From the NCBI GenBank assembly GCA_945875135.1, contig CAMCJO010000019.1, forward strand, positions 1 through 13,622: 13,622 nt of DNA. Reading direction: 5' to 3'. Position numbers and translations under genes: made by a program. The DNA is from an uncultured Porphyromonas sp. (lineage in GTDB: Bacteria > Bacteroidota > Bacteroidia > Bacteroidales > Porphyromonadaceae). Below the pieces are notes generated by a model that was not told the origin of the DNA, ran no database searches, and worked only from the letters and a program-made list of their open reading frames with translations. Shown here in pieces: positions 7,476 through 13,622 of this stretch. Numbering within the stretch: position 1 is the first letter of the stretch; the number at the start of each line of letters is the position of its first letter.

Positions 7476-9068
7476 TTAGAATGAGATGCCACAACGTATG
7501 GCCCCGTAGTTGCTACCGCACAGACTCGTCTGCGTATGGAGGTAGTCTAGTGAGAGCCACAGTGCATAGCTACTGCTGAGCTGATAGCCGTGAGTCATAG
7601 AGAGCCCGTAGGTCATCTGCGTGGAACTAGCTATCTGGAAGGCTCGCTCCAGTGTCTCAGCATAAGTAGGTATAGGCTGATGCTGAGGTGCTAACTGTAG
7701 CGAAGGGTGTCCCGTCTTTGCCCAGATACTATAGGTAGGTGTCAGAGAGACAAAGTACTGCCCGCGATGAAAGCTAACATACGGAGCCAATGTCCCGCCT
7801 AGATGGTAGAAGAGTCGCTCTGCTTGAGGTAGCAAGTCCTCCTCATGTAGTCGATAGCCGAGCGAAGTGGATATGCCCCACGACCAAGGTGTGCGAGGAG
7901 TGTCCTGACTATCCCAAAAGCCTTTAGCACCAAACTCTAAGGTCTGACCATAGTATGACCGCTCCGTGGCTATGCGTGGGTAGATATTGCCCTTAGGATC
8001 ACCGAAGAGATGGACAGCACCTCGACGTATGTCGCCCTGTGTGTAGAGTGCTATGCCCCAACGCCCCAGTCGTGCTGAGCGAGCGGTGTACCCCGCCTGC
8101 AGATCTATCGTGTGACTGGAGAGTGTCGAGAGGGGGAGGTTGTTGAGCTCTCGTATGATACGGTCGGTAGTCAGCAGATGCCACGCAGCCAAAGCATAGA
8201 AGCCTTGACGCGCCTCACTAGTAGGGGTTAGCCCGAGCGATATGCCATAAGACAGCCCTTGATAGAAGAGCGACGTATTGCCTCCCCTAAAGCGGTAGTA
8301 GTCTCCCCCGATGCCCGTAAAGTGATATTCACTAGCCACTCCGAGCTCACTCAAGAAGCCTACCTGATTGTTTTGCTTGTAGCGACCTAGCGTACCTGCT
8401 AGAGCTAGCGCATAGTCGGTAAGCTGATAGCCGATGCCGATCTGCCCCTCCAGGCGTGTAGCCAGATTGCGAGGGCGAGGGTCTTGCGTGCGGTAGGCAA
8501 AGGTGGCACGATAGTCCGCCTTCAAAGAGAGTAGCCAATTGCCGAGGCGATGCACCGTACCGGCACCAAAAGTGTAGAGATCTTGGTGCAGATGCGCCGT
8601 ATGCGCCGTGTCTCCCATGACGTAGGGTGCGAGGAGGGGGTAGTCGGTCGTCTCGTTGAAGCGTATCCCCTCCGTAGCACGATAAGTGTAGGAGGCAGCA
8701 CCCCAAGCGAAGTTGTTGCGCTGACGCAAAGCACTCTCGATATGCACCGATCCATCGATGTCTTGCTTGCCCAGCTGCGGGATCATAGCCTCGCCTCCAT
8801 CTCGCCGCATAGCTCCGCCCAGAGAGAGGTCTGTACGAGAGCCTCGCTCTGAGAAAAAGTAGAGCGGCGACACTACTGGTGATACCGACAGGTCGTAGCC
8901 AGGTCGCCCCTGCTCTAGGAGCGCCCCTGCCACCGTGAGGGTGTCTGCAGGTCGTGAGATCATCTCTGGCTCTTGCTGCTGCCCATAGAGTGAGCTCGTA
9001 AGCACACCTAGGAGACAGAGTAAGAGCGCAAGAGATCTGCTAAGACAAACCGAAGAATGATGCACCAT
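7476..9068 (-). CDS. DUF6850-like outer-membrane beta-barrel protein
   Basis: A 530-residue exported protein. Residues 9-29 form a signal peptide (LSRSLALLLCLLGVLTSSLYG) and the mature chain would begin at Gln30. The rest is rich in alternating aromatic and polar residues with many Gly-Tyr strands (for example WLLSLKADYRATFAYRTQD and GYTARSARLGRWGIALYTQG), and the chain ends in Phe (CGISF), the usual C-terminus of outer-membrane barrels. It has no plug domain, so it is not a second TonB-dependent receptor. I recognise the type as DUF6850, which sits next to DUF4876 lipoprotein genes in Bacteroidetes; the name is from memory and its function is not known to me. It starts 17 bp after the DUF4876 stop and ends 31 bp before the next start, so it is co-transcribed. 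Confidence 0.8.
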   Translation of the reverse strand: MVHHSSVCLSRSLALLLCLLGVLTSSLYGQQQEPEMISRPADTLTVAGALLEQGRPGYDLSVSPVVSPLYFFSERGSRTDLSLGGAMRRDGGEAMIPQLGKQDIDGSVHIESALRQRNNFAWGAASYTYRATEGIRFNETTDYPLLAPYVMGDTAHTAHLHQDLYTFGAGTVHRLGNWLLSLKADYRATFAYRTQDPRPRNLATRLEGQIGIGYQLTDYALALAGTLGRYKQNNQVGFLSELGVASEYHFTGIGGDYYRFRGGNTSLFYQGLSYGISLGLTPTSEARQGFYALAAWHLLTTDRIIRELNNLPLSTLSSHTIDLQAGYTARSARLGRWGIALYTQGDIRRGAVHLFGDPKGNIYPRIATERSYYGQTLEFGAKGFWDSQDTPRTPWSWGISTSLGYRLHEEDLLPQAERLFYHLGGTLAPYVSFHRGQYFVSLTPTYSIWAKTGHPSLQLAPQHQPIPTYAETLERAFQIASSTQMTYGLSMTHGYQLSSSYALWLSLDYLHTQTSLCGSNYGAIRCGISF

Positions 9069-9085
9069 AATCTATCGAAGAGACC

Positions 9086-10402
9086 TTACTGCTCAATAGG
9101 CACGACCCCATCATAAGTCTTGGTCGTGCAGGGTGTACCCTTAGCATTGATCGCAGTACCTTGCTCCTCAATGAGCGAGGCCGTGACCATCGGATTGAAG
9201 TCCTCGAAGGAGTTGTTGGTATCCTGTAGGATCACATGTCCCTCGCCATCCTTGCCTAGGTACTTACGTCGTACGCTGTGGAAGTAGCGATCTTTCTGTC
9301 CGTCTACCGTACCACAGTTTGTATAGCCAGCGTCTATCGTCTCAGGTAGGATCGTCCACTGATGCACCGCCTCGACACTACAATTGACACCATCTATGAT
9401 CCAGTCATTGGGTAGCTTGTAGCATGAGCCTGACATGTCATAGCTATTTCCATTGTGTGTCAAGACGTAGGTGTAGTCATACTTGTAGTCCTTGAGGTAC
9501 TCCTCCTTGGTGATCGGCATACGCGCTATAGCATACGATGCAAAGCCTCTATTGTGTAGGATGAAAAAGGACTTCGTGTAGCAGTACCACTTATCTAGGT
9601 TAGGCACTGTGGGACTATCAAAGTCTTGATGTGCTGGTGAGCTAGACACGTCATACCACTCGAAGTTTGCCTTGGAGAGGTCGAAAGCATTGGGATTATT
9701 CACCTTGTGGTCGATGCCTATGTCGCAAAGTATCAGTCGCTCGCCAGGCTTCACGGGGTGCTCCTTACCACTGCCCGGGATGACATAGACGGCGTGTACC
9801 GCCATGGCTTCTTGACGTATGTCTGGCTTGTAGTCAAACTTGCGTGCTGGGTTAAACCCGCTCTCACAGAAGGCGATCCCGTCAGCATAGAGTACTCTGT
9901 CGGTCCCGTTGTAGAGAACTACATAGCTGGTCCCATGATACTGCTTGCCAGCCGGGGTTAGCGTGCCAGTAAAGAAGATCTCCTGAATGACAAAGTCCTG
10001 AACCGTAGGCACGATACGAAGCTCTAAGCGTAGCTTGAGAGGCTCGGTCGTTTGGTCGGTCACCTCCATATTCTCAATCTGTGCGACCAGCCGTCCCTCC
10101 ATTGCGACCTCGTGTAGCTTATAGCGACAGGTCGTTGTGTAGTTTAGGTTGTACAGTCCAGGAGCGAGCTTGACCCCCTCCAGAGTCTTATACTCCACGT
10201 CTTGACCCGTGGTGATGTTGCGTATCGTGAGGAGCTCATCTTGTATGGTCAAGTCAGTGACATCCTCAGGCAGTGTGCGCTCGAAGAGGCAAGCTATCGA
10301 CTTTTGCTCCTTGGGATTGTCGGGCGTGACTGGGTCTGGACGACAGGCGGTCACAGTGACCAGCAGGGCTGGTAAGAGTAGTATATACAGTAATCGTTTC
10401 AT
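9086..10402 (-). CDS. DUF4876 lipoprotein, likely surface partner of the TonB receptor
   Basis: A 438-residue lipoprotein with MKRLLYILLLPALLVTVTAC and lipidated Cys20. Residues about 36-130 look like an N-terminal Ig-like or fimbrillin-like beta domain. The rest matches DUF4876 as I know it: FVIQEIFFTGTLTPAGKQYHG near 137-157, YVVLYNGTDRVLYADGIAF, WYCYTKSFFILHNRGFASYA, then GYTNCG and YFHSVRRKYLGK near the C-terminus. The VVLYNGTD and YADGIAF stretches resemble the lamin-tail fold; that is my inference. The gene starts 22 bp after the receptor stop, the usual arrangement of an outer-membrane receptor with its surface lipoprotein. I recall an iron-responsive lipoprotein and TonB-receptor pair in P. 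gingivalis that may be related, but I cannot confirm homology here. A substrate-capturing role is likely; the substrate is not known. Confidence 0.88.
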   Translation of the reverse strand: MKRLLYILLLPALLVTVTACRPDPVTPDNPKEQKSIACLFERTLPEDVTDLTIQDELLTIRNITTGQDVEYKTLEGVKLAPGLYNLNYTTTCRYKLHEVAMEGRLVAQIENMEVTDQTTEPLKLRLELRIVPTVQDFVIQEIFFTGTLTPAGKQYHGTSYVVLYNGTDRVLYADGIAFCESGFNPARKFDYKPDIRQEAMAVHAVYVIPGSGKEHPVKPGERLILCDIGIDHKVNNPNAFDLSKANFEWYDVSSSPAHQDFDSPTVPNLDKWYCYTKSFFILHNRGFASYAIARMPITKEEYLKDYKYDYTYVLTHNGNSYDMSGSCYKLPNDWIIDGVNCSVEAVHQWTILPETIDAGYTNCGTVDGQKDRYFHSVRRKYLGKDGEGHVILQDTNNSFEDFNPMVTASLIEEQGTAINAKGTPCTTKTYDGVVPIEQ

Positions 10403-13232: not shown

Positions 13233-13256
13233 AAGGGGAAGCACTAAAAGCCTCTG

Positions 13257-13264
13257 CAAAGTTA
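13257..13264 (-). promoter_or_regulatory. Candidate -7 element of the operon promoter
   Basis: On the minus strand this reads TAACTTTG, an exact match to the Bacteroidetes TAnnTTTG element. A start site a few bases downstream, near 13251, would leave a leader of only about 18 bases before ATG 13232. A TTG at 13280-13282 could be a -33 box, but its 15-bp spacing is shorter than usual, so that part is weak. This position supports the shorter start of the receptor gene. Confidence 0.55.
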
Positions 13265-13282
13265 CGTCGGCTTCATCTCCAA

Positions 13283-13308
13283 TAAAATAACTACTAATAG
13301 GTATTTTA
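13283..13308. promoter_or_regulatory. Operator-like inverted repeat upstream of the receptor promoter
   Basis: TAAAATA (13283-13289) and TATTTTA (13302-13308) are perfect complements. After one mismatch the inner arms CTA (13291-13293) and TAG (13298-13300) also pair around a 4-base centre, so 20 of 26 bases are in matched pairs. It lies 19 to 44 bp upstream of the -7 element, where a repressor or activator could control polymerase. It does not match the classical Fur consensus that I know. The regulator is unknown. Confidence 0.5.
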
Positions 13309-13439
13309 GCCCGCCTCACTCATCAATCGTCGGTAGGAGCTGTGAGGAAGAAGTCAAAAGTTCGACCTGCTCCCTGGCTGGGGAAATTCAACGCCGGCTC
13401 GTTACAATAATTTGGGTCTGACGACATATCGAAACGGTG
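13309..13439. other. Non-coding spacer between the receptor promoter and the repeat array
   Basis: I see no gene, RNA gene or clear promoter here. Minus-strand frames through it run on into the repeat array and show no signal peptide, domain or sensible composition. A small inverted motif ACGG-TG-CCGT (13434-13443) abuts the start of the array. It is probably the distal upstream region of the receptor promoter or the 3' flank of a gene outside the window. Confidence 0.5.
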
Positions 13440-13622
13440 CCGTGTCGGGGAAAAGTGATTTCCACGTGGATATTTCGAAATCTCCACGTGGAGAATAAAA
13501 AATTCTTCGGAGGAATGAAATGAAACTTCGGAGGAATGAAATGAAACTTCGGAAGAATCAAAACGCCCCCACGTGGAAAAAGAAAAACATCCACGTGGAG
13601 ATTTGAGATTCCCCACGTGGAT
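13440..13622. repeat. Mixed-head tandem array with 21-22 bp period, continuing past the right edge
   Basis: Unit heads fall at 13462, 13484, 13505, 13526, 13547, 13569, 13591 and 13613, that is steps of 22, 21, 21, 21, 22, 22 and 22. Five heads are the palindrome CCACGTGG (13462, 13484, 13569, 13591, 13613). The three central heads are CTTCGGAGG, CTTCGGAGG and CTTCGGAAG. Each head is followed by about 12-14 AT-rich bases that vary in the CCACGTGG units. A degenerate head, CCGTGTCGG, starts at 13440 in the same phase. The array is truncated by the window edge. Reading frames across it (to about 97 codons) are low-complexity and have no protein features. Its function is unknown; a protein-binding array or a mobile/intergenic repeat are both possible. 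Confidence 0.85.
13505..13567. repeat. Three 21-bp direct repeats in the centre of the array
   Basis: Units 13505-13525 and 13526-13546 are identical over all 21 bases (CTTCGGAGGAATGAAATGAA plus A). The third, 13547-13567, keeps CTTCGGAAGAAT and then diverges. The heads are quasi-palindromes: CTTC-G-GAAG is perfect in unit 3, and the A-to-G change in units 1 and 2 would still allow a G-U pair in RNA. In unit 1 the pairing extends to seven positions (13502-13508 with 13510-13516). Confidence 0.85.

Follow-up and report, generated by a model that had tools for sequence, protein, structure and literature searches.

The array at the end of the window (the whole stretch of 13,622 nucleotides analysed here, which is the entire contig C19 of its own draft genome, G000; 2.04 Mb, 305 contigs) represents a single copy of an intergenic, non-coding element of about 265 bp that occurs dispersed and consists of a leader, an array of eight units, and a tail. 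Its copies are numerous and share a lattice, their palindromic heads vary little, they lie between genes and avoid close neighbours, and relatives carry other heads on the same lattice. With moderate confidence we favour the interpretation that this is a clade-specific element that spreads like a MITE, with an array that is a candidate cluster of sites for a dimeric protein, set at 21–22 bp steps for cooperative binding and with a head word that can be switched between lineages.

Two kinds of unit in one register at the contig end

The leader and the eight-unit array form the final 219 bases of the window, and the contig stops two bases past the last head, before the tail. The leader (13404–13461, forward strand) begins ACAATAATTT and is conserved among the copies in the near-complete relative G018. 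Within it, ACATATCGAAACGG (13424–13437, forward strand) pairs as an imperfect inverted repeat with the ACATATCTTTACGG at the end of the tail, on the other strand, as judged from the consensus and other copies; the tail of the window copy lies beyond the contig end. The exact word CCACGTGG is found five times, as heads H1 (13462–13469), H2 (13484–13491), H3 (13569–13576), H4 (13591–13598) and H5 (13613–13620), against 0.17 occurrences expected and with five or more in none of 200 shuffles. Between H2 and H3 are three forward-strand units of the CTTCGG type, CTTCGGAGG at 13505–13513 and 13526–13534 and CTTCGGAAG at 13547–13555. The order is thus two CCACGTGG, three CTTCGGARG and three CCACGTGG, at steps of 22, 21, 21, 21, 22, 22 and 22 bp, which bears out the original prediction of a single register across eight units. 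The accompanying proposal that all heads face one side of the helix needs correcting: H1 and H5 are 151 bp apart, or 14.4 turns at 10.5 bp per turn. By this arithmetic the outer heads drift by about one-third of a turn in relaxed B-DNA, and it would take about 10.8 bp per turn to bring them onto the same side.

The nearest gene encodes a TonB-dependent receptor with Plug and CarboxypepD_reg domains (10425 to about 13319, reverse strand), and the genes after it (7476–10402, reverse strand) match DUF4876 and DUF6850. In the interval between the TonB gene and the element we note TAACTTTG with TTG about 20 bp ahead (13250–13290, reverse strand). This resembles the Bacteroidetes promoter consensus, and the TonB gene may have its own promoter there. 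A protein-coding repeat was rejected, as 22 is not divisible by three and the open reading frame through the array has no Pfam match.

Copies in the same genome and in relatives

The pattern CCACGTGG-N10-16-CCACGTGG has 68 matches in the window's own genome and none in a reversed control, and a blastn search with window positions 13420–13622 gives 102 alignments there, many of them partial or on the reverse strand. Six of 100 genomes contain the pattern, the own one counted: G000 (68), G018 (263), G020 (199; 2,186,370 bases, presumably P. asaccharolytica DSM 20707), G013 (6; P. uenonis DSM 23387), G002 (3; P. uenonis 60-3), and G083, from another family, whose single match has an unrelated spacer. 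Allowing up to three mismatches, the middle block is present in five of 26 Porphyromonas genomes (G018, 198 matches; G020, 120; G013, 96; G000, 52; G002, 4) and absent from the control. About 105 copies were located in G018, or 104 when L100, a single copy split by two insertions, is counted once. A pattern scan of wider genome contigs, from which records near the window were possibly excluded, found matches only in two P. uenonis records, and no match to the element was seen in plasmids or phages.

Chance is ruled out by the empty reversed control, by the 200 shuffles, and by a survey of 400 kb of G018 in which every one of the 54 pairs formed by identical, ungapped palindromic octamers at a distance of 22 bp was CCACGTGG. 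The idea that the array was produced by chance or by misassembly can be dismissed almost completely: the window does stop within an element, and several other copies in its genome lie at contig ends, yet the element is also found inside long contigs of G018 and G020, and the controls are empty. Draft genomes of the clade break inside copies of the element, which accounts for where contig C19 ends. A CRISPR, with identical repeats and unrelated spacers, is likewise ruled out, as the dispersed copies share their spacers.

Anatomy of the element and its lattice

Measured from ACAATAATTTA to GATATGT, 59 of 66 distinct G018 copies with leader and tail motifs are 265 bp long, five are 266 bp, one is 264 bp, and one, which lacks a 21-bp unit, is 244 bp. 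Of the six 1-bp length changes, five fall in the array and the remaining one in the leader, leaving the tail unaffected. Spacing is maintained, though no more tightly than the length of leader or tail, and changes of length are no rarer in the array. Close to each end of the element is an imperfect inverted repeat, ACATATCnnnACGG; conservation extends past it on either side, fading about 20–25 bp left of the leader and, beyond the tail on the right, continuing into repeats of the TTAGAG type. The right flank of G018 copies frequently has short repeats of the TTAGAG and AACAGCC types, and many copies (for example L069, L084 and L085) are bordered, on one side or on both, by another repeat of about 105 bp whose ends resemble CAGGGCTGACGCATTA.

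Across 155 arrays from three genomes, a step of 22 bp separates adjacent heads in 351 cases, and a step of 21 bp separates adjacent CTTCGG units in 234. Only about four of 902 unit spacings are off the lattice when spacings of 42–44 and 65–66 bp are treated as containing unread units. The suggested search for CCACGTGG heads at 21–22 bp in this and related genomes therefore returned many copies at fixed spacing, and not the irregular spacing that would have made the phase a coincidence. As to whether the array is a decayed copy of a longer known repeat, it is indeed part of a longer repeat, albeit a well-kept copy of one for which we found no description.

The arrangement of units is looser than their spacing. 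The 3' side of the CTTCGG block, in the direction of the window, is richer in readable heads in 68 of 97 G018 arrays, poorer in 16 and equal in 13. The corresponding counts (more, fewer, equal) are 10, 7 and 9 of 27 arrays in G000 and 16, 8 and 6 of 31 in G020, the remainders being arrays not of this form. The 2-3-3 order of the window is found in 38 of 97, one of 27 and two of 31 arrays in G018, G000 and G020, respectively. Unit order therefore varies while the register stays constant.

Heads vary less than spacers

We compared 59 G018 copies picked by their leader and tail motifs, so that the heads were free to vary. Mean divergence from the consensus is 1.4% in heads, 6.9% in CTTCGGARG units, 10.3% in spacers, and 9.9% and 5.1% in leader and tail, whose ends are set by the search motifs; heads differ from spacers with P = 5e-9. 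Similar values were obtained at sites matching between G000 and G018 (heads 2.3%, CTTCGGARG 2.9%, spacers 11.4%, leader 15.0%, tail 5.7%; P = 4e-12), using 19 of 20 pairs after a 20% filter removed one, with two pairs representing both sides of the window's element. Under another projection, with no filter, heads and spacers differ by 5.0% and 18.5% at matching sites and by 4.4% and 20.9% between non-matching copies. Of the interior heads, 94 of 110 are exact and the others mostly have single changes; double changes that keep the palindrome are hardly seen. In 0.8 Mb of G018, 22 of 199 CCACGTGG words lie outside arrays, against about 13 expected, and some of these are array relics.

The claim that heads are kept more strictly than spacers is thus upheld. 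The further claim that spacers are unconserved stands only within one array, where they differ from one another; between copies they are kept position by position, at 10.3% divergence. Some process keeps the heads alike, either at resident copies or in a shared source. The copy at the matching site is the closest of about 93 in only four of 19 cases, and private changes per site and copy are equally frequent in heads (0.0042) and spacers (0.0039), an ambiguous test of selection because variants saturate. Given these two results, conversion or a common source could keep the heads alike without any binding at resident sites. The far flanks of the matching sites differ by about 5% and the 60 bp on each side of the element by 18–20%, in a comparison that omits bins above 45%.

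These same two results are also what would be seen if the element were a plain selfish MITE with a passive minisatellite for an array, its heads alike through youth or homogenisation and its close copies lost by recombination. Rearrangement breakpoints at the element and arrays collapsed to a single head (L295) fit as well. We nonetheless consider this rather unlikely: heads should then vary like spacers, and they vary far less, and the lattice persists where the head word differs (see below).

We also considered a structured RNA, a terminator or a 5' regulatory element. Single sequences fold strongly (z of -5.1 and -6.6 on the two strands) because the heads are self-complementary. Among 71 copies, however, compensatory cells number 13 and 19 against shuffle maxima of 17 and 20, so that the RNA fold suggested originally shows no covariation above those maxima, and the gene context of the copies is mixed (6 convergent, 9 codirectional and 5 divergent of 20). 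The window has no Rfam match at the gathering score. To judge from these alignments an RNA role for the array appears unlikely, and we give very little credence to any of the three forms named.

Other heads on the same lattice

Relatives carry other palindromes at the same spacing. Seven fetched loci of G013 have CCTACCTAGG or CCTAGGTAGG heads flanking a CTTCGGAGGAATCAAATGAAA middle; one (L264), and perhaps a second (L266), has the flanks of CCACGTGG sites of G018, and the G018 place corresponding to a third (L265) has no array. Pairs of a further head, GAAACTnnAGTTTC, occur in six of 26 genomes of the genus (G002, 92; G000, 64; G013, 58; G018, 9; G020, 1; G025, 1) and not in the control, and all steps in the GAAACTnnAGTTTC arrays inspected are 22 bp except one of 45. 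The G002 counterpart of the window's TonB gene has a GAAACTnnAGTTTC array upstream of it, and at L296 in G020 GAAACTnnAGTTTC heads adjoin GGCACTnnAGTGCC. From the CCTAGGTAGG and GAAACTnnAGTTTC arrays we conclude that two heads per lattice is wider than the window; the prediction of one lattice with two head types holds, and relatives add more palindromes to it.

In the more distant G025 (L297) a GAAACTnnAGTTTC array stands beside a CCGGACAGCAATA motif, which is also near one G000 array (L298). Another palindrome, AGTTCC-N6-GGAACT, forms arrays with 22-bp steps at L263 in G013 and at several of L276–L295 and L304–L323 in G018.

Turnover and insertions

The element has the MITE traits of being short (265 bp), non-coding and dispersed in many copies (68 pattern pairs in its own genome). 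We examined 43 loci of that genome, of which 38 had an array match; 21 of these share at least 250 bp of flank with a fetched G018 array locus. Other sites differ in occupancy: the places of L139, L265 and L298 are empty in G018, as is that of L018 on its one readable side, and the array site L170 has no array in G013 or G002. Junctions between aligned sites with and without the array are not clean, and no clean target site duplication was found among them. The breakpoints of rearrangements also fall at the element. In L264 of G013, flanks that belong to two widely separated G018 sites meet; L267 connects the window's TonB flank with that of a different array site; and L272 of G002 brings together positions that are 13 kb apart in G018, where two copies border them.

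A search of 0.8 Mb of G018 for an autonomous parent gave no exact end motif lacking CCACGTGG within 330 bp. The 1.84-kb forms were rejected as parents, since they are IS3-family insertions whose position varies. Insertion elements of two kinds, both of which score as IS3-family transposases, break up six fetched G018 copies, one of them (L100) twice; at L097–L102 they lie at differing points inside array elements, and arrays may attract them.

A second dispersed repeat, of 175 bp (L170, positions 1604–1778, in G018), has copies in G013, G002 and G016 that are 93–99% identical. It ends in GAGACTGTTGCA, a motif with 41 occurrences in 0.8 Mb of G018, of which five are no more than 500 bp from an array. 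The same end is given for ISPg4 and MITEPgRS in the available part of a paper on P. gingivalis (PMC4596501).

Placement on the chromosome

A fully read 400 kb of G018 contains 20 arrays. They occupy the gaps between called genes, except that one overlaps a 97-aa open reading frame, and their neighbours are convergent in 6 cases, codirectional in 9 and divergent in 5. The shortest interval between them is 7.4 kb, with none under 7 kb against about five expected (P about 0.001), and the coefficient of variation (CV) of the intervals is 0.39 compared to 0.87–0.91 for random intergenic gaps (as low in 0 of 10,000 draws); this region was picked after the copy list was known, which may flatter the result. 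Over the whole G018 list, where 19.6 of the 105 intervals would be expected to fall below 5 kb, 3 do so, one of them being the split copy L100, and the CV is 0.63 compared to 0.99 (as low in 0 of 5,000). Among the matches listed for G020, intervals below 5 kb number 4 of 104, compared with 21.8 expected, and the CV of all intervals is 1.00 owing to a 191-kb gap. Copies thus avoid close neighbours beyond what the intergenic null predicts, which may reflect immunity-like insertion, recombinational loss of close copies, or a chromosomal role. Two slots (L278 and L295) hold an intact copy beside a relic, so that the avoidance acts between slots.

Orientation in G018 changes by arc, with 10 forward and 28 reverse copies inside 52–802 kb and 52 and 15 outside it (as strong in 0 of 300 permutations). 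Replication-polar orientation was rejected, since G020 shows none (25/18 versus 28/14, P = 0.50) and G018 beyond 2.2 Mb opposes the skew (8 forward, 1 reverse). In both genomes dnaA is near position 1, while the sign of the GC skew switches elsewhere.

SlmA, Noc and MatP sites and gyrase-binding BIMEs are models for a host site that organises the chromosome or acts in the cell cycle, such that the cell needs an array every 10–30 kb and selection keeps both spacing and heads. The even intervals in the 400 kb of G018 and the scarcity of intervals below 5 kb in G018 and, among its listed matches, in G020 argue for such a site. We find it doubtful, as middle-block counts are very uneven among near relatives (198 in G018 to 4 in G002), the listed G020 matches leave the 191-kb gap and a CV of 1.00, the orientation arcs of G018 are missing from G020, and the most regular region was chosen with the copy list in hand.

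A bolder and quite speculative possibility is that the arrays are clade-wide chromosome anchors, about 7 kb or more apart in re-used intergenic slots, whose heads (CCACGTGG, CCTAGGTAGG, GAAACTnnAGTTTC) are swapped genome-wide on a constant 21–22 bp lattice because a lattice-stacking dimeric protein changes its specificity and the arrays follow.

A candidate array of dimer sites

In the interpretation we favour, a MITE-like element carrying candidate dimer sites, the element would be mobilised in trans by an enzyme, and each palindromic head would take one dimer of a sequence-specific DNA-binding protein. The fixed 21–22 bp steps would let adjacent dimers bind cooperatively, and the head word would switch between lineages while the lattice stays; the array might serve the element's own spread, the host, or both. 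The proposal that the heads are dimer sites draws its main support from the contrast between heads and spacers and from the way the head changes while the lattice stays constant. Our searches yielded no protein partner for the heads and, by exact motif in 0.8 Mb of G018, no transposase with ends like those of the element. Should the heads be protein sites, the clade would be a natural experiment in genome-wide change of a recognition word at constant spacing, and would also inform what holds dispersed repeats apart on a bacterial chromosome.

Comparison with known systems

SlmA, Noc and MatP sites and parS, the last also with a CACGTG core, are palindromic protein sites distributed across the chromosome. 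They are single sites, whereas here eight-unit arrays sit in an element that looks mobile.

REP sequences and BIMEs with their RAYT transposases share with the element a high copy number of extragenic palindromes, regular spacing, hybrid arrays of two kinds, and species-specific words, in the available portions of two accounts (PMC2817692, PMC3733652). REPs are described there as 20–40 bp stem-loops tagged GTAG or CGTC; in contrast, the head CCACGTGG is an 8-bp palindrome with no loop and no such tag, set within a leader and a tail. The original assertion that no family with alternating heads had been described was too strong, since Stenotrophomonas has hybrid BIMEs with REPs of two RAYTs (PMC2817692, in part).

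Among open-licence papers, judged by title and the start of the abstract, we found no description of the element, and papers on related species had no relevant passage on repeats. The closest published relative is the BrickBuilt MITE of P. gingivalis, as far as the available part of its description goes (PMC4596501). It comes from the same genus, is intergenic and dispersed, has a leader, tandem units of similar length and a tail, changes length by units, and lies near varied genes. In BrickBuilt the unit measures 23 nt and the inverted ends are near GAGACCTTTGCA; ATCC 33277 has 19 copies, and lengths reach 991 nt (PMC4596501, same part). The window, which lacks the tail, contains no match to the GAGACCTTTGCA end motif at up to two mismatches, and in 0.8 Mb of G018 no exact match comes within 500 bp of an array. 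Unlike BrickBuilt as described in that part, our element has palindromic units of two kinds at 21 and 22 bp, ACATATCnnnACGG ends, and about 105 copies in G018. Measured against that description, the element follows a BrickBuilt-like plan with another unit, other ends, and more copies.
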